Below are positions 8,183-22,790 of a stretch of DNA of 64,000 nt, piece by piece (position 1 is the stretch's first letter; the number at the start of each line of letters is the position of its first letter). The DNA is from Lysobacteraceae bacterium NML93-0399 (lineage in GTDB: Bacteria; Pseudomonadota; Gammaproteobacteria; Xanthomonadales; Xanthomonadaceae), in assembly GCA_002307375.1 (NCBI GenBank), contig NTJI01000001.1:1-64000 (forward strand), given 5' to 3'. The notes beneath the pieces are model-generated. The model was not told the origin of the DNA and made no database searches. It worked only from the letters and a program-made list of their open reading frames with translations. Made by a program: the position numbers and the translations under genes.

Positions 8183-10333
8183 ATGCGAATTCCCTCCTTC
8201 CGTATCGGCCAGCGCCTTGCGTCAGGCTGCGCCGTCCTCATCACATTGACGCTGCTGCTCACCCTGGTCGGCATCCACCGCGTCGGCCAGGTCAGCGAGC
8301 GCCTTGACGCCATCGAAGACGTCAACGCAGTTAAGCAGCGACACGCCATCAGTTTCCGCGGCAGCGTCCATGATCGGGCGATCGCCCTGCGGGACATTGT
8401 CCTCGCCGACGACGACCGTGTTCGGGAGGACGCCACCGAGGCGCTTGTACGCCTCGCGGCGTTTTACGCCGACTCCGCCGGGCCGCTCGCCGCCATGGTC
8501 GCGGCCTCTGCCGACACCCGCGAGGCGCCTCTTCTGGCGCACATCGAATCGGTAGAGAGAAGGGTACTGCCCTTGATCGAACGCGTGCAGACGCTCCGGG
8601 ATGCCGGGAACGCCGACGCTGCGCGCGCGCTGCTGCTGCTAGAGGCGGCACCGGGCTTTGTGGAGTGGCTGGCCGGCATCAACGCCTTCATCGACCTGCA
8701 GGAGGCCAAGATCCGCGAGGATTCGACTGCCGCCGCCGCGCTGGCCGACGGTTTCGGGCTCACCATGATGGTGCTTTCAGGGCTGGCGATCATCGCCGGC
8801 TTGTTGGTCACATGGGCGCTTATCCGCGCCGTTGTCCGACCGCTCGGCGAGGCGCTCGATGCAGCCGAACGCGTGAGCCGCGGCGAGCTGGACCAGCCCA
8901 TCGCGGTCGCCGGCCGCGACGAAAGTGGCCAGTTGCTCGCCGCCATGGCGCGGATGCAGGACCGCCTGCGCGCGGTCATCGACGCGCAGCGCGAAATGGA
9001 GCGCCGCCACGCCGAAGGCACGATCAGCTTCCGCATGGACGCCGCCGCGTTTCCGGGCGACTACGGGGTGATGGTCGATGGCACCAACGAACTCGTCGCC
9101 TCGCACATCGCGGTGAAGATGCGGCTGCTGGAGATCATCGGCCATTACGCGGTCGGCGACCTGGCCCCCGACATGGACCGCCTGCCGGGCGAGAAGGCGG
9201 TGCTGACGCAGACGATGGACACGGCCAAGGCCAACCTGTCGGGCATCAATGGCGAAATCCGCCGGCTGGTCGAGGCGGCCAAGCACGGCCGGTTCGATGC
9301 GCGCGGCGATGCATCGCGCTTCGACCACGAGTTCCGCGAGATGGTCGAAGGCCTCAATGCGCTGATGACCACGACCGAACGCAACCTCGGTGCGATGTCC
9401 GGGCTGCTGCAGGCGCTCGCGCGCGGCGATCTGACCGTGCGCATGGAGGGCGAATACCACGGCGTGTTCGCAGCCATGCGCGACGATGCCGACGCCACCG
9501 TGTCCCAGCTGACGGGCATCGTGTCGCGGATCCAGTCCGCGTCGGGTGCGATCGGCGCCGCGTCGTCGGAGATCGCCAGCGGCAATCAGGATCTGTCGGT
9601 GCGCACCGAGCAGCAGGCGGCCGGCGTCGAGGAAGCGGCCGCGTCGATGAAGGAACTCACGTCCACCGTGCGCCAGACCGCCGAGCACGCGCGCCAGGCC
9701 AACGAGCTGGCGATCGGCGCGGCCGGGGTCGCGTCCCGGGGCGGCGACGCCGTCGGCCAGGTGGTCACCACGATGGCCGACATCGAGGCCGCTTCGCGCC
9801 GGATCGGCGACATCATCTCGGTCATCGACGGCATCGCCTTCCAGACCAACATCCTGGCGCTCAACGCCGCGGTCGAGGCGGCACGCGCCGGCGAACAGGG
9901 CCGCGGCTTCGCGGTCGTCGCCTCCGAGGTCCGCATGCTGGCCCAGCGCAGCGCGGGCGCGGCCAAGGAGATCAAGACGCTGATCGAGGACGCGACCGGA
10001 CGCGTGGCCGATGGCGCGCTGATCGCCGGAGAAGCCGGGCGCACGATGGGCGACATCGTCGAGGCCGTGCAGCGCGTGACCGGCATCATGTCCGAAATCG
10101 CCTCCGCCTCGCGGGAACAGGCAGCCGGCATCGAACAGATCAACCAGACCATCACCCAGATGGACGAGGCCACGCAGCAGAACGCCGCCCTGGTCGAAGA
10201 AGCCTCGGCCGCCGCGCGGGCGATGGAACACCAGGCCGGCGCCTTGAACGACAGCGTCGCGGTGTTCCGCATCGACCCGACCCGCGCGCTGCTGCAGTCG
10301 CTGCGCACCACCCCTGCGACTGCCGACGCCTGA
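8183..10333 (+). CDS. Methyl-accepting chemotaxis protein 1
   Basis: A 716-residue receptor. Membrane helix 1 (about residues 12-31) and helix 2 (about 192-213) bracket a roughly 160-residue helical periplasmic sensor of the four-helix-bundle type. A HAMP domain (about 214-270) leads to a further HAMP-like linker region with internal repeats ([22 protein letters not shown]) and then the cytoplasmic coiled coil with the kinase-control tip [17 protein letters not shown] (about 552-568). Unlike its neighbours it ends in TTPATADA without an xWxxF docking tail. Base composition is like its neighbours. The ligand cannot be read from sequence. Confidence 0.93.
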
Positions 10334-10352: not shown

Positions 10353-10379
10353 TCAACTTCCGGCGCGCGCGGCCGATAC
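10353..10379 (+). promoter_or_regulatory. Sigma-28 (FliA) promoter of the PilZ gene
   Basis: TCAACTTC (10353-10360), an 11-bp spacer and GCCGATAC (10372-10379) match the FliA pattern, 32 bp before the start codon at 10412. Confidence 0.8.
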
Positions 10380-11857: not shown

Positions 11858-12241
11858 ATGTCATTGAAGACCACTTCCCGCGTCCTGGCCGTTCTGCTGC
11901 TGGGCGGCGCCGCCTCCGCCGTCATCGCCCAGGACGCCATCCGTCCCGACCAGGCCACGCGTTTCGTCGGCAAGAGCGGCATGGTCTGCGGCAAGGTCGA
12001 GAAGACCCGTTACGCGCAGAACTCCGAAGGCTCGCCGACGTTCCTGCACATGGGCGGCGCCTTCCCGCGCCACACCTTCTCGGCGCGCATTCCGCAGGAT
12101 CAGCGCGACCGCTTCCGCCCCTCGCCCGAAGAGCTTGAAGGCCGCGACGTGTGCGTGGTCGGCACGATCGAACGTGATGCGAGCCGGGCCGAGATCGCCG
12201 TGCGCTCGCCCGCCGACGTCAAGCTCGCCACGATCAACTGA
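11858..12241 (+). CDS. Small secreted OB-fold-like protein of the chemotaxis locus
   Basis: A 127-residue protein with a signal peptide (residues 1-24, cut after SAVIA) and a mature domain of about 100 residues. The pattern [20 protein letters not shown], a hydrophobic strand, and [18 protein letters not shown] resembles the small secreted OB-fold proteins that look like nucleic-acid-binding domains. Two cysteines (about 47 and 107) could form a disulfide. Its function is unknown. A FliA promoter and position between cheW and a receptor suggest a role with motility or periplasmic sensing; this is inference only. Confidence 0.7.
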
Positions 12242-12249
12242 TGCCTCGT

Positions 12250-12273
12250 ACCGGCCGCCTTCGGGCGGCCGGT
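12250..12273 (+). terminator. Strong GC hairpin after the small secreted protein gene
   Basis: ACCGGCCGCC and GGCGGCCGGT (12250-12259 / 12264-12273) form a perfect 10-bp stem closed by a TTCG tetraloop. There is no T-run, so it may pause or attenuate transcription before the receptor gene at 12307 instead of terminating fully. Confidence 0.6.
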
Positions 12274-12306
12274 GCGCTTCCAGTACGCAAGAGGGGGAAT
12301 TGTCTG

Positions 12307-14682
12307 ATGCACTGGTTCTCGAATCTCAAACTCGCGCCGAAGCTGATGCTCGCGTTCGGCGCCGTTCTGTTGATCATGTTCCTGCAGGGTTTCGGTGCCT
12401 ACATGGGCATGCGTTCGATGCACGATGTGACCACCGACATCGCCAACGACGCGCTGCCAAGCATCGCGCTGGTCGGCGAAACCCGCGGCCTGCTCGGCGA
12501 GTACCGCACCGCCTCCTACCGCGGTGTCACCCGCGCCAGCGAAGAGGTCAAGCAGGATGCCCGCGAACGTGCCGCGGGGATCGATTCCCAGCTGCGCAGC
12601 AACTTCGAGTCCTACGCCCAGTACGTCAAGACGCCCGAGGAAGAGCAGATGCTCGCCGACCTGGTTGCCGCATGGGCGCGCGCCAAGGCCTCCTACGACT
12701 CGGTCAACGAGATGGTCGATCTCGACCTGCCCGACGATGCCACCGACACGCTGATCGGTGAAGCGGGCGATCTGCACACCGCCACGGCCAATGCGCTGGC
12801 GGCCCTCGCCGACTCGGCCAATCGCAGCGCCACCGCCGCGCGCGACTCCTCCGAGACCACCTACACCGCGTCCAACATCATCCTCGTCGTGCTGCTGCTG
12901 TCCGGCGCTGCCGGCGGCATGCTCATCGCCTGGCTGATGGCCCGCAATCTCACCCGTTCGGTCCGCGAAGCGGTCGTCGTCACCCGTGACATCGCCGACG
13001 GCAAACTCGACAGCCACATCGACACCCGCCGCGCCGACGAGATCGGCGACCTGCTCAAGTCCATGCAGCGCATGCAGACCGATCTGCGCGAGCGCATCGA
13101 ACGCGACCAGGCGATCGCCGGCGAGAACCTGCGCATCCGCACCGCGCTCGACAGCTCGGGTACCAGCGTGATGATCGCCGACCCCTCGCGCACGGTGATC
13201 TACGCCAATGCTGCGGTGGCCGAGCTGCTCGGCCGCTATGAGAACGACGTGCGCGCCACGCTGCCGGAGTTCGACCCCGCCGCACTCGTCGGCACCCGCA
13301 TCGACGCCTACCAGCGCGACCCCGAAGGTCTGGCCGATACCCTCGCCCAGCTCAAGGGCGTGCACAGTGACGAACTTGTCCTGGGGGAGGCGCATTTCGG
13401 GCAGACGCTCGCACGCGTCGACGATGCCGAAGGCACGCTGCTGGGTTACGTCGTCGAACTGCGCGACCGCACGCCGCAGGTACGCGTGGAGGCCGAACTG
13501 GCGCATGTCATCGATGCCGCGGCAGCCGGCGATCTCTCGCACCGGATCGCGCTGGCCGACAAGCAGGGCTTCTACCTGCAGCTCGCGCAGCAGCTCAACA
13601 GCCTGCTCGACGCCAATGCCAACAGCCTCGACCAGGTCTCGACCGTGCTCACCGCGCTGGCCGATGGCGATCTGACCGTGCGCATGGACGGCGACTTCAG
13701 CGGCGTCTTCGCGACCATGCGCGACAACGCCAATGCGACCGTCGCCCAGCTCACCGGCATCGTGGCGCGCATCCAGGAAGCCTCGAACGCGATCGGCACC
13801 GCCTCGTCGGAAATCGCATCGGGCAACAACGACCTGTCGCAGCGCACCGAGCAGCAGGCCGCCAACCTCGAGGAAACCGCCGCGTCGATGGAGGAACTCA
13901 CCTCCACCGTGCGCCAGAATGCCGACCACGCCCGCACCGCCAATCAGCTCGCGATCGGTGCGGCCAACGTCGCCTCGCAGGGCGGCGATGTCGTCGGCCA
14001 GGTGGTCACGACGATGGCCGACATCGAGCGCGCCTCGCGCAAGATCGCCGACATCATCTCGGTCATCGACGGCATCGCGTTCCAGACCAACATCCTCGCG
14101 CTCAATGCCGCCGTCGAGGCCGCACGCGCCGGTGAACAGGGCCGCGGTTTCGCGGTCGTCGCCAGCGAGGTCCGCACCCTGGCCCAGCGCAGCGCCGGCG
14201 CCGCCAAGGAAATCAAGACGCTGATCGAGGATTCGACCGGCAAGGTCGCCGACGGTGCCGCGCTGGCGGCGCAGGCCGGCAAGACCATGGGCGAAATCGT
14301 CGGATCGGTGCAGCGGGTGACCGACATCATGTCCGAGATCGCCGCCGCCTCGCAGGAGCAGGCTTCGGGCATCGAACAGGTCAACCAGACCATCACCCAG
14401 ATGGACGAGACCACGCAGCAGAACGCCGCGCTGGTCGAGGAAGCGTCCGCCGCGGCGCGCGCGATGGAAGAGCAGGCCGCCGCCCTGTCGGAAACGGTCT
14501 CGATCTTCCGCATGGAGACGGCGCAGGCCTCGGTGCAGGCGGTGCTCGCCGCCCACCAGAAGCCCTCCTCGCCTGCACCAGCTGCGGCGCAGGCCCCACG
14601 CAGCGCGGCACCCGCGCCGAAGGCACGTCCGCAGCGCGCCAAGCCCGCCGCGGTGGCCGAGGCCGACTGGGCCGAGTTCTGA
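12307..14682 (+). CDS. Methyl-accepting chemotaxis protein 2 with CheR/CheB docking tail
   Basis: A 791-residue receptor. The ATG at 12307 ([15 protein letters not shown]) is chosen over an in-frame upstream codon because a purine-rich site (AGAGGGGGA) precedes it and the N-terminus then begins just before membrane helix 1. Helix 1 spans about 13-34; a four-helix sensor follows, then helix 2 (about 190-212) and HAMP. A PAS-like region (about 275-400: [20 protein letters not shown]) and a second HAMP-like region precede the signalling coiled coil with [18 protein letters not shown] Pro/Ala-rich flexible tail ends in DWAEF, an xWxxF pentapeptide of the kind bound by CheR and CheB. Confidence 0.93.
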
Positions 14683-14892: not shown

Positions 14893-14919
14893 TCAAGCCC
14901 CCGCCTCACACGCCGATAA
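14893..14919 (+). promoter_or_regulatory. Sigma-28 (FliA) promoter of chemoreceptor 3
   Basis: TCAAGCCC (14893-14900), an 11-bp spacer and the perfect -10 GCCGATAA (14912-14919), 48 bp before the ATG at 14968. Confidence 0.85.
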
Positions 14920-14967: not shown

Positions 14968-17727
14968 ATGCTCCGTATCCTGCAACGCCCCTCCATCGCG
15001 ACCAAGCTGTCGATTGCCGCAGCGCTCGCGGCGGGTCTCTGCCTGCTCGTGCTCGCCGTCGTGGTCTACCGCGATTTCGCGGCCGGTTACGAACGCCAGG
15101 CCCAGCTCGCACTCGCCGACGCCGCGGCGGCATCCACCGAGAGCGTTGCGCTTTACGAGCAGACACTGCGCGAGAACACCGAACGCCTGGGCACCGCCTT
15201 CACCGCGATGCTGCCCGACGCGCCTGCCGAACTCGATACCGAGCGGCGCATCGCGATCGGCGAACGCGAGACGCCTCGCCTGTCGTTCGATGGCGCCGCG
15301 ATCAATCTCGACTTCGAACTCGTGGACCGCTTCACGCGCAACACCGGCGCGGTCGCGACCGTGTTCGTACGCGATGGCGACGACTTCGTGCGCGTCAGCA
15401 CGTCGGTCAAGGACACCGAAGGCCAGCGCATGGTCGGCACCGTGCTGCAGCACTCGCACGCCGCGTACGGCCGCGTGTCTTCGGGCCAGGCGTATACCGG
15501 ACCCGCACGCCTGTTCGGCCGCGACTACATGACCTATTACTGGCCGCTGCAGGATGCGGGCGGCGGTGTCATCGGTGCGCTGTTCATCGGCTCCGACTAC
15601 ACCGAGGGCCTGGCCACGCTGATCGAACGCCTGCGCGAGACACGCATATCGGGCGATGGTTACCTGGTGGTGGTCGACACGAAAGACGCGGAGATGTCGG
15701 TGGTTTCGCATCCCGAGGGTGCGTCCGGCGATGTCGCCGCGCTCGTCTCCCCCGACACCCGCGCCGCGCTGACCGGACTGGCGAACGCCGGAACGGGCCA
15801 GGCCCGCCTGACGTTTGATGCAGGCACCGCGGATGTCGAAGCCGGCGCATTCGCACCCTGGAACTGGGTCATCCTCGCCGTCAAACCGCGGGCGCAGGCC
15901 GAAGCCGCGCTGGCCTCGATGCGTCTGACGGTCGCCGGCGTGTCGCTGCTCGCACTGTTCGCACTGGTCGTGGTGATCGTCGGTGCCAGCCGCCGCCTGA
16001 TCTCCCGTCCATTGGCGCGCGCCGTGGCGATCGCCGACCGCGTGGCCGCCGGCGATCTCGACACCGCCATCGACGCCCGCGGCCACGACGAGACCGCGCA
16101 ATTGCTCAAGGCGCTGTCGCACATGCAGACGGGCCTTCGCGAGCGCACCGAGCGCGACCAGGCGATCGCCCGTGACAGCCTGCGGGTGCGCACCGCACTC
16201 GACCACGTCACCACCAGCGTCATGATCGCCGACCCCGCGCGCGACATCATCTACGTCAATCGTCCGCTGCAGGAGATGCTGGCGGCCGCGCAGAACGACC
16301 TGCGTCGCGACCTGCCCGATTTCGACGCCAGTGCCCTGATCGGGGCCAATATCGACGGTTTCCACCGTGCGCCCGAACACCAGGCACAGATGCTGAGCCG
16401 TCTGCGCAGCACGCATCGCGCGCAGATCCGCGTCGGCGGACGCACCATGCAGCTGGTCGTCAATCCCATCCTCGATGCCGCCGGCCACAGCGAGGGCTTC
16501 GTCGTCGAGTGGACCGACCGCACGCACGAAGTGTCGGTCGAAGACGAGGTGTCGCGGATCGTCGCCGCCGCAGCGGCCGGTGACCTGTCCGGGCGCGTGC
16601 GCACTGACGACAAGCAGGGCTTCCTGCTGCAGCTCGCCCGCCAGCTCAACAGTCTGCTCGATGCCAATGCCAACAGCCTCGAGCAGGTGTCGACCGTGCT
16701 CACCGCGCTGGCCGACGGCGACCTCACCGTGCGCATGGAAGGCGACTTCAGCGGTGTGTTCGCCCGCATGCGCGATGACGCCAACACCACCGTCGCCCAG
16801 CTGACCGGCATCGTCTCGCGCATCCAGGAGGCCTCGGGCGCGATCGGCACCGCCTCGTCGGAAATCGCATCGGGCAACAACGATCTCTCCCAGCGCACCG
16901 AACAGCAGGCGGCCAATCTCGAAGAGACCGCTGCATCGATGGAGGAACTGACCTCCACCGTGCGCCAGAACGCCGACCACGCCCGCCAGGCCAACCAGCT
17001 GGTCAACGGCGCGGCCGCGGTCGCGTCGCAGGGCGGCGAAGTCGTCGGCCAGGTGGTCACCACGATGGGCGAGATCGAGCAGTCCTCGCGGCGCATCGCC
17101 GACATCATCTCGGTCATCGACGGCATCGCCTTCCAGACCAACATCCTCGCGCTCAATGCCGCCGTGGAAGCAGCACGCGCCGGTGAGCAGGGCCGCGGCT
17201 TCGCGGTGGTCGCTTCCGAGGTGCGCACCCTCGCCCAGCGCAGCGCGGCTGCGGCGAAGGAGATCAAGACACTGATCGACGATTCGACCGGCAAGGTCGA
17301 AAGCGGCGCCGCACTCGCCGCCCAGGCCGGCAAGACCATGGGCGAGATCGTCGGGTCGGTGCAGCGCGTGACCGAGATCATGGCCGAGATCGCCGGCGCC
17401 TCGCAGGAACAGGCCGCAGGCATCGAACAGGTCAACCAGACCATCACCCAGATGGACGAGACCACCCAGCAGAACGCCGCGCTGGTGGAAGAAGCCTCGG
17501 CCGCCGCGCGTGCGATGGAGGAACAGGCCGCCGCGCTGACCGAGACGGTGTCCGTATTCCGGACCGCGCACGCGGCGCCGCCAACCACGGTCGCTACGCC
17601 GGTCACGTCCGGCACACCGAAGCGGGTCTCCGCCGCACCCGCGCCGGCCCCGAAACGCGTTGCGCTCGCTCGCGTCACGCCCCAGCCCCGAACCCCTGCC
17701 CACGAGACCGACTGGGCCGAGTTCTGA
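14968..17727 (+). CDS. Methyl-accepting chemotaxis protein 3 (Cache-type sensor, PAS-like, docking tail)
   Basis: A 919-residue receptor, the largest of the four. Membrane helix 1 (about 18-40) is followed by a long periplasmic region of about 270 residues typical of the Cache3-Cache2 fusion class ([42 protein letters not shown]). Helix 2 lies at about 318-338, then HAMP, a PAS-like segment ([16 protein letters not shown]), a second HAMP-like region and the signalling coiled coil. The C-terminus is a Pro-rich linker ending ETDWAEF, an xWxxF docking pentapeptide. Cache fusions of this type usually bind small organic ligands, but the ligand is not predictable here. Confidence 0.93.
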
Positions 17728-17838: not shown

Positions 17839-20040
17839 ATGAACCTCCAGCGCGCCCTTTACCGCCACATCTCCAACATGCCGATGCGCTGGAAGTTCTA
17901 CGTCCAGAGCGCATTCGTTGCCGCCGGCATCATCCTGCTCGCGGTCATCGCCGCGCGCCTGCAATACGTCGACCTGCAGAACACGCGGCAGAATGCCCTG
18001 CGCGCGCAGACCGAAATGGCGCTGGGCATCGTGGAGCAGTTCGCAGCCCGTGCCGAGTCGGGCGAACTGACGCTCGACGTGGCCAAGGCCGGCGCGCTCC
18101 GCACGCTGCAGGCGATGCAGGCGAGCGACGGCATCGATTACTTCTTCGTGACCGACGACACGCCGGTCATGCTGATGCACCCCAGCCGCCCCGATCTGAT
18201 CGGCAAGCCGCTTGCCCAGGTGCTCAGCCCGGACGGCAAGGCGATCTTCCCCGAATTCGTGCGCGTGGCGCAGGCCGGCGGCGGCTTCGTGGACTACACG
18301 TGGGCCAAGGCCGGCGAAGACGATCCGGTGCAAAAGACCTCGTTCGCGGCGCGTTACGCCCCATGGGGCTGGGTGCTGGGCACAGGGGTGTACCTCGACG
18401 ACACCCAGGCGCAGGCGCTCTATTTCACCGGCATCATGACGCTCGCCGGCGGCGCTCTCGTGCTGCTCAACCTGTTGCTGGGCTGGGCCATCGGCGGCTC
18501 GATGCTCGATGCGGTGGGGCGTGCGCTCGGGGCCGTGCGCGGCGTGGCACGTGGTGATCTGTCGGTCCGCACGGGCGATCACGGCCGCGACGAGGTCGGA
18601 CAGATGCTCCGCGCGACCGACGAGATGGTCCACATGCTCGAGCGGTTCTCCCACCAGACACGCACCATGACCCGGCTGCATGCCGCCGAGGACATCAGTC
18701 ACCGGATGCCGACCGATTTCCCGGGCGTCTACGGGGAACTCGCGGCCGGCATCAACACCATGATGTTCGAGCATCTCGACGCGATCCAGGACGCGGTGGT
18801 GGTGCTGCAGGAATATGCGGACGGCGACCTGTCGCGCGATGCGAGGCGACTGCCGGGTTCGCGCGCGGTGCTGCACGAGGCGATGGACGCCGCCAAGGCC
18901 AGCCTGCTGTCGATCAACGGCGAGATCCGCCGGCTTGCACAAGCCGCCGCGAGCGGTGACTTCAGCATCCGCGGCGACGAAGCGTCGTATCGCGCCGACT
19001 TCCGGGTGATGGTGCAGGGCCTCAACGCAATGATGGACACCTGCGACCGCAACCTGTCGCAGGTGTCGCAGCTGCTCGCGCGCATCGCCGAGGGCGACCT
19101 GACGGGGCGGATGCACGGCGACTACCAGGGCGTGTTCGCCCGCATGCGCGACGATGCCAACGCCACCGTCGCCCAGCTGACCGGCATCGTCTCGCGCATC
19201 CAGGACGCCTCGGATGCGATCGGGACCGCCTCGTCGGAAATCGCATCGGGCAACAACGATCTCTCCCAGCGCACCGAGCAGCAGGCGGCCAATCTCAAAG
19301 AGACCGCCGCGTCGATGGAGGAACTGACCTCCACCGTGCGCCAGAACGCCGACCACGCCCGCCAGGCCAATCAGCTGGTGATCGGGACGGCGCAGGTCGC
19401 AAGCCAGGGCGGCGAGGTCGTCGGCCAGGTGGTCACCACGATGGGCGAGATCGAGCAGTCCTCGCGGCGCATCGCCGACATCATCTCGGTCATCGACGGC
19501 ATCGCCTTCCAGACCAACATCCTCGCGCTCAATGCCGCGGTCGAAGCCGCACGCGCCGGTGAGCAGGGCCGCGGCTTCGCGGTGGTCGCCTCCGAGGTGC
19601 GCACGCTGGCCCAGCGCAGCGCCGGCGCGGCCAAGGAGATCAAGCAGCTGATCGACGATTCGACCGGCAAGGTCGAAAGCGGCGCCGCGCTCGCCGCCCA
19701 GGCCGGCAAGACCATGGGCGAGATCGTCGGGTCGGTGCAGCGGGTGACCGACATCATGTCCGAGATCGCGGCTGCTTCGCAGGAGCAGGCCGCCGGCATC
19801 GAACAGGTTAACCAGACCATCACCCAGATGGACGAAACCACGCAGCAGAACGCCGCGCTGGTGGAAGAAGCTTCGGCCGCCGCGCGTGCGATGGAGGAAC
19901 AGGCGACGACGCTGACCCGGACGGTGGCGGTATTCCGGATCTCGCCGGACGCCGCTGCACAGACACTGGCCGGTCAGTGGCTCGCCAATGTCACTTCCGC
20001 CGTCGGCGCCGATGGTAGTCCGCGGTCGAAGGCGCGCTGA
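17839..20040 (+). CDS. Methyl-accepting chemotaxis protein 4 (sCache-type sensor), tail cut by TGA
   Basis: A 733-residue receptor with membrane helix 1 (about 23-42), a single-Cache periplasmic domain (about 50-190: GIDYFFVTDDTPVMLMHP, APWGWVLGTGVYLDD), helix 2 (about 196-218), HAMP repeats and the [17 protein letters not shown] signalling tip. The sCache_2 type commonly senses carboxylates or similar small ligands. The frame stops at TGA 20038-20040. If that codon is read through, the same frame continues for 46 sense codons and ends in DTDWSEF followed by TGA at 20179-20181, giving the tail expected from receptors 2 and 3. No FliA promoter is visible upstream. Confidence 0.92.
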   Translation: MNLQRALYRHISNMPMRWKFYVQSAFVAAGIILLAVIAARLQYVDLQNTRQNALRAQTEMALGIVEQFAARAESGELTLDVAKAGALRTLQAMQASDGIDYFFVTDDTPVMLMHPSRPDLIGKPLAQVLSPDGKAIFPEFVRVAQAGGGFVDYTWAKAGEDDPVQKTSFAARYAPWGWVLGTGVYLDDTQAQALYFTGIMTLAGGALVLLNLLLGWAIGGSMLDAVGRALGAVRGVARGDLSVRTGDHGRDEVGQMLRATDEMVHMLERFSHQTRTMTRLHAAEDISHRMPTDFPGVYGELAAGINTMMFEHLDAIQDAVVVLQEYADGDLSRDARRLPGSRAVLHEAMDAAKASLLSINGEIRRLAQAAASGDFSIRGDEASYRADFRVMVQGLNAMMDTCDRNLSQVSQLLARIAEGDLTGRMHGDYQGVFARMRDDANATVAQLTGIVSRIQDASDAIGTASSEIASGNNDLSQRTEQQAANLKETAASMEELTSTVRQNADHARQANQLVIGTAQVASQGGEVVGQVVTTMGEIEQSSRRIADIISVIDGIAFQTNILALNAAVEAARAGEQGRGFAVVASEVRTLAQRSAGAAKEIKQLIDDSTGKVESGAALAAQAGKTMGEIVGSVQRVTDIMSEIAAASQEQAAGIEQVNQTITQMDETTQQNAALVEEASAAARAMEEQATTLTRTVAVFRISPDAAAQTLAGQWLANVTSAVGADGSPRSKAR

Positions 20041-20181
20041 CTCCGCGCGGCGCATGTCTCAGTCGCGCGTGCGGTATCGAGCGTGCATGCGACCGCTGTC
20101 CCCGCCCCCGGCAGGCGCACCGTGCCCGCCTCGCTGCCGCACGCGTCCGCGCCGGCCGATACGGACTGGTCGGAATTCTGA
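20041..20181 (+). pseudogene. In-frame 3' extension of chemoreceptor 4 carrying the DWSEF docking motif
   Basis: Directly after the TGA at 20038-20040 the same frame stays open for 46 codons, Ala/Pro/Arg-rich (for example AVPAPGRRTVPASLPHASAP), and ends in DTDWSEF then TGA. The composition and terminal pentapeptide match the tails of receptors 2 (DWAEF) and 3 (DWAEF). A single CGA-to-TGA change would explain the interruption. TGA followed by C is also a leaky stop context, so low-level readthrough is an alternative. Confidence 0.7.
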
Positions 20182-20202: not shown

Positions 20203-20229
20203 TCAATTTCGACCGGGCGCGGCCGATAT
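20203..20229 (+). promoter_or_regulatory. Sigma-28 (FliA) promoter of cheR-cheD-cheB
   Basis: TCAATTTC (20203-20210), an 11-bp spacer and GCCGATAT (20222-20229), 28 bp before the cheR ATG. Confidence 0.8.
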
Positions 20230-20257: not shown

Positions 20258-21130
20258 ATGGCTGCGTCCCCCCTGCCCCACCCGCCGGTCGCCCATCGCG
20301 ACTTCGTGTTCTCCGACCGCGACTTCCGACGCGTCTGCCAGCTCATCCGGACGCGTGCCGGCATCGCGCTCGTCGACAGCAAGCGGGACATGGTCTACGG
20401 CCGGCTCGCCCGCCGGTTGCGTGCACTGGGCATGACCGAATTCGGCGCCTATCTCGACCGGCTCGAGCGCGAGACCGACAGCGACGAGTGGCAGGCGTTC
20501 ACCAACGCCCTGACGACCAACCTCACCTCGTTCTTCCGCGAGCCCCATCATTTCGAGCACCTGCACACCCAGCTCGCCGCATTCGGCAGCGCCCCCCGCA
20601 GCCCGCTGCAGCTGTGGTCGTGCGCGGCGTCGACCGGTGAGGAGCCCTATTCGATCGCCATCACGGCGTGCGAGGCCTTCGGCACCATGACGCCGCCGGT
20701 GCGCATCATCGCCACCGATATCGACACCCAGGTGCTGACGACCGCGCAGCGCGGTGTCTACCCGATCGAGCGCGTGTCGGGCCTGTCGCTCGAACGCAAG
20801 CGCCGTTTCTTCCAGCGCGGCACCGGCCCCAACGAAGGCCACTGCCGGGTGCATCCGGCCCTGCAGGCGCTGATCGATTTCCGCCCGCTGAACCTGCTCG
20901 ATGCGCGTTACGACATCGGTGGGCCGTTCAGCGCGGTGTTCTGCCGCAACGTGATGATCTATTTCGACAAGCCCACCCAGCGGGAAATTCTCGGGCGGCT
21001 GGTCACGCACATGGATGCGAACACGCTGCTCTACACCGGCCATTCGGAAAACTATCTCCATGCGGCCGATCTGATCCGCCCCTGCGGACGCACCCTGTAT
21101 CGCCGCAACCTCGAAGGCGGTCGCTTGTGA
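20258..21130 (+). CDS. cheR: Chemotaxis protein methyltransferase CheR
   Basis: A 290-residue S-adenosylmethionine-dependent methyltransferase that methylates glutamates of receptor coiled coils. An N-terminal helical domain (about 18-95, with [13 protein letters not shown]) precedes the methyltransferase domain: [17 protein letters not shown] (about 120-136) is the SAM-binding motif, FCRNVMIYF (about 228-236) the later conserved motif. Full-length CheR proteins of this type can dock on receptor xWxxF tails through the beta-subdomain, and two receptors here carry such tails. The stop overlaps cheD by 4 bp (GTGA). Confidence 0.95.
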
Positions 21131-21726
21131 GCCGCCCGGCCTTCCAGGACGACGACGTCCTGCGCTACCGCGACGCCCACTTCAAGGTGCCCGCGGCCAA
21201 GCTGCTGCCTACCCAGTACCTCGTGGTCGACGACGGCACCGCGCTGGTTACCGTGCTCGGCTCGTGCATCGCTGCCTGCGTGCGCGACCCGCTGCTGCGG
21301 CTGGGCGGCATGAACCACTTCATGCTGCCCGAGGGCAATGTCGGCGACGGCGCGCCGGCCCGCTACGGCAGCTATGCGATGGAAATGCTGATCAACGAAC
21401 TGCTCAAGCGCGGTGCCAGCCGTCGCCGGCTCGAGGCCAAGGTCTTCGGCGGCGCCAACGTGCTCAAGGGCTTCACCTCCAACCCGGTGGGCACGCGCAA
21501 CGCCGACTTCGTGCTGGCGTATCTGGCCGCCGAACAGATTCCGGTCGTGGCCGAGGACCTGCGCGGCATCCATCCGCGCAAGGTATGGTTCTTCCCCGAT
21601 ACCGGACGGGTCATGGTCAACCGCCTGCCGCATGCCCACGAGGCCGAAGTGGTCGCGGCCGAAACCGCGGTCCGCGCGCGCCTGTCGCGCACGCCGGTCA
21701 GCGGTGGCGTGGAACTGTTCGAATGA
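21127..21726 (+). CDS. cheD: Chemoreceptor glutamine deamidase CheD
   Basis: A 199-residue CheD. The catalytic cysteine lies in [11 protein letters not shown], with histidine in [11 protein letters not shown] and the conserved KVFGGANVL segment. CheD deamidates receptor glutamines to create methylation sites. The GTG at 21127 overlaps the cheR stop (GTGA) and keeps the usual N-terminus; a downstream start would remove conserved sequence. The stop overlaps cheB by 4 bp (ATGA), so cheR, cheD and cheB are translationally coupled. Confidence 0.93.
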
Positions 21727-22790
21727 GCCGGTGCCGCGTCCTCATCGTCGACGACTCGGCGGTCGTGCGGCAGCTGTTGACCGAATTGCTGGGCCAGGAC
21801 CCGGGCATCGAGGTCGTCGGCACCGCCGCCGACCCGTTGCTCGCCCGCGAGAAGATCAAGCGGCTCAATCCCGACGTGCTGACGCTCGACGTCGAAATGC
21901 CCCGCATGGATGGCCTGGCGTTCCTCGAGAACCTGATGCGCCTGCGGCCGATGCCGGTGATCATGGTGTCGTCGCTGACCGAACGCGGCGCCGATGTGAC
22001 CTTGCAGGCGATGGCGCTGGGCGCGGTCGATTTCGTCACCAAGCCCAAGGCGGGCGTCGCCCAGGGCCTGGCCGACTACGCAGTCGAGATTGCCGGCAAG
22101 GTCAAGGCCGCCGCGCGCGCCCGCGTACGGCCGCTGGCCGGTGCCGCGCCGGTCGTCCGGCTGGACGCGGCGCCCCGGGTCGCCCCCGTGGCGACACGTT
22201 TCCGCACCACCGACCGCCTGATCGCGATCGGCGCGTCGGCCGGTGGCACCGAGGCGATCCGGGTCGTGCTCGAGGCCATGCCGCCCGATGCGCCCGCCAT
22301 CGTGCTGACCCAGCACATTCCCGCAAGCTTCAGTCGCCCCTTCGTCGAACGGCTCGACCGCTGCTCGCAGATGCTGGTACGCGAGGCCCGCGACGGCGAG
22401 ATGATCCTGCCCGGCCACGCTTATCTGCCGCCCGGCGACCACCATCTGCGTGTGATCCGCGACGGCGCGCGCTGGCGCTGCAAACTCGACGCCGGTCCGC
22501 CGGTCAACCGCCACCGGCCCGCGGTGGATGTGCTGTTCCGCTCGGTCGCCGAGGCCGCCGCCGGCAATGCGGTCGCGGCCATCCTCACCGGCATGGGTGA
22601 TGACGGCGCACGCGGCCTGCTGGAACTGCGCCAGGCCGGCGCGGCGACACTGGTGCAGGACGAGGCCACGAGTGTGGTCTGGGGCATGCCCGGCGCTGCG
22701 GTGAAGCTCGGCGCCGCGCAGGAAACGTTGCCGCTCGATGCCATCGCCGGCCGGCTGCTGGAACTGGCCGGCGCCAACGCAGCCGCCTGA
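21723..22790 (+). CDS. cheB: Protein-glutamate methylesterase CheB
   Basis: A 355-residue response regulator-esterase. The receiver domain (1-120) has VDDSAVVR and the phospho-acceptor aspartate in [12 protein letters not shown] (about 56). The C-terminal methylesterase (about 160-350) has the catalytic serine in [11 protein letters not shown], histidine in [13 protein letters not shown] and aspartate in [13 protein letters not shown]. CheB removes receptor methyl groups when phosphorylated by CheA. It is the last gene of the cheRDB unit and of the chemotaxis locus. Confidence 0.95.

Follow-up and report, generated by a model that had tools for sequence, protein, structure and literature searches.

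A Luteimonas chemoreceptor that has probably lost its CheR/CheB docking pentapeptide, still legible behind the stop codon

We analysed 64,000 nucleotides of Lysobacteraceae bacterium NML93-0399 (positions 1 to 64,000 of contig NTJI01000001.1, assembly GCA_002307375.1; hereafter the window), which hold a chemotaxis locus with several chemoreceptor genes. The fourth of these, receptor 4, ends at a TGA codon, and the same frame runs on beyond it to a CheR/CheB docking pentapeptide, DWSEF. We consider it likely that receptor 4 has lost this C-terminal docking site and now works without a tether, methylated by CheR held on the neighbouring receptors 2 and 3. Receptor 4 would thus be an sCache chemoreceptor of a Luteimonas species in which the pentapeptide was lost, probably after the split from the closest known full-length relative. 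In the mechanism that we propose, about 33 codons ending in TGA entered the gene, or arose by rewriting, where the signalling domain used to meet the old tail; translation would stop at this TGA and leave the former linker and DWSEF untranslated on its 3' side. The signalling domain and three methylation-site motifs are retained, and CheR docked on receptors 2 and 3 would most likely methylate the receptor within mixed clusters, an arrangement known as adaptational assistance.

A stranded pentapeptide behind the receptor 4 stop

The frame of receptor 4 spans 17839-20037 and encodes 733 amino acids; it is closed by TGA at 20038-20040, the next base is C, and the translated product ends in RSKAR, with DWSEF on the 3' side of the stop. 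Read in the same frame, 20041-20181 encodes 46 residues ending in DTDWSEF, followed by a stop at 20179-20181. Open reading frames and translations thus agree with the initial annotation, which had reported an early TGA with 46 open in-frame codons behind it, and they bear out that receptors 2 and 3 end in DWAEF. A match of 184.7 bits to the MCPsignal family (PF00015; cut-off 34.6) identifies receptor 4 as a methyl-accepting chemoreceptor.

An xWxxF end behind the receptor 4 stop is well above chance. All six frames of the window together hold 1545 stop-to-stop pieces, of which only 3 end in this way, namely receptor 2, receptor 3 and the receptor 4 tail; a looser xZxxZ pattern is found at the end of five. 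The openness of the 46-codon tail means little by itself, since 668 of the 1545 pieces are at least that long. The tail had also been described as composed like those of receptors 2 and 3, which did not hold: the summed fraction of Ala, Pro, Arg and Lys in the remnant minus its pentapeptide is 0.49, lower than in any of 16 intact linkers (the tails of the genus that were caught by a pattern anchored on FRI), which span 0.56-0.80. Composition is in any case uninformative as evidence for a tail. The remnant DNA gives 0.60 and 0.57 in its other two frames and 0.50 in the tail frame, and a value of 0.49 or more is found in 674 of 3268 random open pieces. Compared with whole real tails, the 46 post-stop residues score a z of 8.9, mainly due to the pentapeptide; minus the last seven residues the z is 1.7, with 13 of 300 shuffles equally good, and real linkers compared among themselves range from 0.3 to 6.9.

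The pentapeptide among relatives

The closest full-length orthologue (G051; same genus, 77%) ends in EADWAEF and lies just 5' of cheR. We fetched seven congeners from the 52 genomes of the genus, and in all of them the cheR-proximal receptor ends in DWAEF. These relatives support the earlier view that a docking pentapeptide has been severed from receptor 4 and that the post-stop piece is its remnant; the accompanying claim, that a change in one codon was the cause, fares differently, as set out below. In one congener (G011) the cheR-proximal receptor has a frame that is broken in the signalling domain and a pentapeptide tail that is intact. The sensor of the cheR-proximal receptor varies, its N-terminal part being different in L. 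deserti (G036). Conversely, the sCache receptor of four congeners (G008, G011, G048 and G054) has a short tail lacking the pentapeptide and is followed, judging by the downstream frames, by a PilZ-type gene. From this pairing of short-tailed sCache receptors before a PilZ-type gene with DWAEF beside cheR, the pentapeptide tail seems to go with the position of the gene and not with the type of sensor, which suggests that tails have been exchanged between paralogues. Such an exchange between receptors 3 and 4 is plausible because they are 91.5% identical in DNA across 907 nucleotides of the signalling domain.

The L. deserti orthologue was considered as a further witness and set aside, as its contig breaks off within the signalling domain and a search of that genome (E <= 1e-10) found no piece with the missing end. 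This assembly is interrupted in two receptor genes, on contigs C7 and C9, both times at the repeated signalling domain.

Among 395 family genomes searched, 68 had an orthologue at E <= 1e-150. Leaving out the contig-cut L. deserti copy and adding two further congeners (G011 and G054) made 69, removal of one genome with no full frame (G376) made 68 rows, and dropping two broken frames (G341 and G153) left 66 scored orthologues. The pentapeptide is present in 25 of these and missing from 41. On a quick tree, for which most columns came from the sensor and HAMP regions, the trait changed at least eight times, with five changes forced by starred branches, and receptor 4 is sister to a pentapeptide-bearing orthologue with a Shimodaira-Hasegawa-like approximate likelihood-ratio test (SH-aLRT) value of 99. 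In seven genomes of a related genus (g18) a stop occupies the second position of the pentapeptide, so loss through a stop codon has probably occurred at least twice. Receptor 4 is thus probably one of several losses of the CheR/CheB docking site. Given that the tail has been lost or gained several times among relatives, we regard an ordinary and fairly recent loss as more probable than a hidden two-form protein.

Origin and decoding of the stop

More than the stop codon distinguishes this tail. Intact tails of the genus extend 46-57 codons past the FRI anchor; that of the window, if read through, would extend 79 codons including the stop, 33 through the stop and 46 after it. Counted from the ALVE motif onwards, the 25 pentapeptide-bearing orthologues have 71-85 residues and the window has 108, counting the stop. 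The initial annotation had proposed a single CGA-to-TGA change. This finds no support, since some 33 codons through the stop appear to be surplus and what follows the stop is by itself of full tail length; moreover, no clear equivalent of the codon at 20038 can be seen in the relatives compared, and the 32 residues that precede it do not resemble a tail. Against linkers, these 32 residues show no similarity (z of -2.0; 297 of 300 shuffles equally good). The stretch of about 33 codons ending in TGA was probably inserted, or its sequence rewritten, after the signalling domain and ahead of the old tail.

More specific accounts of the changed tail were tried and rejected. The pre-stop stretch is unlike eight short tails of pentapeptide-less receptors from which it might have been borrowed (z of -0.9; 255 of 300 shuffles equal). 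Nor is it a repeated element, since it occurs only once in the genome and the next best match there spans 18 bases. An attempt to place it as a single gap gave no clear site, and a compensated frameshift was dismissed when the other frames of the tail, judged by eye, proved no more linker-like.

Alternatively, the TGA could be an error of sequencing or assembly, in which case receptor 4 would have its pentapeptide. One base is enough to open the frame, and the signalling domains of receptors are near-repeats in which another assembly of the genus breaks. However, the genome, 3.57 Mb long, lies in seven contigs and is 100% complete, and the linker would be an outlier even if the TGA were removed. 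We therefore judge such an error unlikely.

It had also been suggested that the TGA is read through to make two receptor forms, one competent for adaptation and one not. At a low level, read-through would yield a short, tether-less form and a long form able to dock CheR. A TGA followed by C is a weak stop context in bacteria, the 46 open codons end in a perfect pentapeptide, and a strong hairpin is predicted around the stop. After the stop, third-position GC is 0.826, a value that is highest in the receptor 4 frame but comes from 46 codons only. However, no [DEGSN]WxxF-stop was found within 100 codons 3' of the stop, in three frames, in any of the 40 other pentapeptide-less orthologues, so a stop with a conserved in-frame extension is not a feature of these relatives. 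TGAC also terminates ten other orthologue rows, and no such remnant follows it there. The linker of the long form would lie outside the observed range, at 79 versus 46-57 codons. As for the hairpin, none of 200 shuffles was equally stable and it occurs once in the genome; its strength is matched by 13 of 3196 windows, its own included, and by 5 of 1306 windows of matched GC.

Recoding offers no better route. The sole match above the cut-off for a selenocysteine tRNA is called tRNA-Ser(TGA) by ARAGORN. PMC13092985 gave us the idea of a tRNA-Trp that reads UGA by means of a 4-bp anticodon stem; here the stem has its complete 5 bp. Taking the absent downstream motif in the 40 orthologues together with these tRNA results, we do not uphold programmed read-through, and we hold low-level read-through to be quite improbable. 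In a more elaborate version, a hairpin-aided leaky TGA would let a minor fraction of receptor 4 be made in the long form, which would dock CheR by way of an uncommonly long linker; the short form, bearing a Lys in a methylation pair, would be poorly methylated, and one gene would thereby fix how many receptors of the array are tethered relative to those that are not. This we regard as highly unlikely.

Methylation sites, locus and known systems

A pattern search with what we take to be the methylation-site motif finds three such motifs in receptor 4, at residues 490, 644 and 672. The first pair is Lys-Glu, and Glu-Glu in the sibling receptors. Among 87 aligned signalling domains, which are partly non-independent, the first Glu of this pair is Lys in receptor 4 only and Glu in all 86 others. 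Receptor 1, which lacks a pentapeptide, has Lys at the next methylation pair and is likewise unique among the 87. The second Glu of each pair, presumably the residue that is methylated, is retained. The two Lys residues would fit a relaxed selection for methylation in these two untethered receptors of the genome; such a Lys was seen in no other pentapeptide-less receptor of this set, and hence there is no general rule. To call the short form incompetent for adaptation, as had been done, is too strong, given that it keeps three methylation-site motifs and that many receptors, Trg and Tap among them, manage without a pentapeptide (PMC7390727).

The Lys might instead mark receptor 4 as a young pseudogene, decaying as a whole. 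It replaces an otherwise invariant methylation-site Glu and is accompanied by one further departure, and at least two departures occur in just 12 of the 87 domains. However, receptor 3, which bears the pentapeptide, also has two departures and receptor 1 has 15, the receptor 4 frame is unbroken for 733 codons, and third-position GC across it is 0.887, as coding DNA should have. Decay of the whole gene therefore appears very doubtful. Receptor 1's 15 departures all lie at near-invariant columns of the signalling domain.

Several points weigh against loss of the pentapeptide with assistance by receptors 2 and 3. DWSEF remains a perfect docking motif, which would also be expected of read-through under selection, and the Lys could signal decay of the whole receptor. 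The tree tallies changes and cannot separate gain from loss, and the other near orthologue, that of L. deserti, ends at a contig edge with its tail beyond the sequence. The insertion is argued from length and dissimilarity, and its best gap site varies with the tail used and beats shuffles by little or not at all. Clustering with receptors 2 and 3 is assumed.

The partners that assistance would call for are encoded nearby (Table 1). The genome has eight receptors, for five of which the tail ends were read. CheR matches Salmonella CheR (1af7 and 1bc5, the latter being the peptide-holding structure) with 285 bits, and the alignment is gap-free through the stretch in which we place the beta-subdomain; the match to 5xly, which we take to be a pentapeptide-independent CheR, is gapped there. 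As far as sequence can tell, the three components of Trg/Tap-type assistance are therefore present: a receptor with no pentapeptide, pentapeptide-bearing partners and a CheR that looks able to bind the pentapeptide.

Table 1. Features of the receptor 4 locus, in window coordinates
Feature	Position	Strand	Basis or remark
Receptor 1	8183..10333	+	Open reading frame (ORF); no pentapeptide; Lys at a methylation pair (codon at 9650)
Receptor 2	12241..14682	+	ORF and Pfam; C-terminal DWAEF; possible helper of receptor 4
Receptor 3	14968..17727	+	ORF and Pfam; C-terminal DWAEF
Receptor 4 (MCP4)	17839..20040	+	ORF and Pfam: sCache_2 sensor, HAMP, HAMP_N3, HAMP_2, MCP signalling domain
Lys codon at otherwise invariant methylation-site Glu	19297..19299	+	Signalling-domain alignment
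Pre-stop stretch (32 residues and TGA, FRI anchor to remnant)	19942..20040	+	Unlike every intact or short receptor tail tested
Predicted RNA hairpin around the TGA	20022..20096	+	-48.4 kcal/mol, z -3.3
Linker remnant (41 codons)	20041..20163	+	Untranslated provided that the TGA halts every ribosome
Stranded CheR/CheB docking pentapeptide DWSEF and stop	20164..20181	+	
FliA (sigma-28)-like site before cheR	20203..20228	+	Between DWSEF and cheR
cheR	20258..21130	+	ORF and Pfam; gap-free alignment to Salmonella CheR through the beta-subdomain stretch
cheD and cheB	21127..22790	+	Start positions inexact

The window has four FliA-like sites, called with what we take to be the promoter consensus, where 0.08 would be expected, and a counterpart ahead of cheR is present in all five relatives' loci searched (with a slightly looser pattern). 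With such a site before it, cheR may not need to depend on the receptor 4 transcript, and the receptor 4 stop need not harm it. Further FliA-like sites lie at 10353-10378, before a PilZ gene, and at 14893-14918, before receptor 3. Between cheW and receptor 2, 11858-12241 holds a 127-aa frame with no Pfam match.

Why a pentapeptide is needed is described as poorly understood in PMC7390727, which reports it on 37.41% of the receptors of Xanthomonadales and as rarer than average on Cache receptors. Assistance neighbourhoods comprise seven dimers, according to PMC3777915. The sCache orthologue group, with its several gains or losses, lends itself naturally to comparisons that ask why the pentapeptide is needed by some receptors and not by others, and receptor 4 provides a case in which its loss is still legible. 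No chemoreceptor with a stranded pentapeptide appeared among the titles and abstract openings listed in our searches of open-licence literature.

Trg and Tap are low-abundance receptors of Escherichia coli that are assisted by Tar and Tsr. Receptor 4 resembles them, as they are portrayed in PMC7390727, in having a full signalling domain, no pentapeptide, pentapeptide-bearing neighbours and a CheR seemingly able to bind these. Unlike Trg and Tap, it has a lost pentapeptide that can be read past the stop, and orthologues within one family differ in the trait. We know of no stranded remnant in the receptors of Sinorhizobium meliloti, though no search aimed at one was made. This species is alike in mixing receptors with and without the pentapeptide, which four of its eight receptors carry (PMC7390727). 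The g18 sCache receptor is closest in kind, in that its docking site was also ended by a stop codon, there at the second position. Unlike in receptor 4, little of the pentapeptide remains past that stop, and the g18 loss is common to seven genomes and so is probably older.
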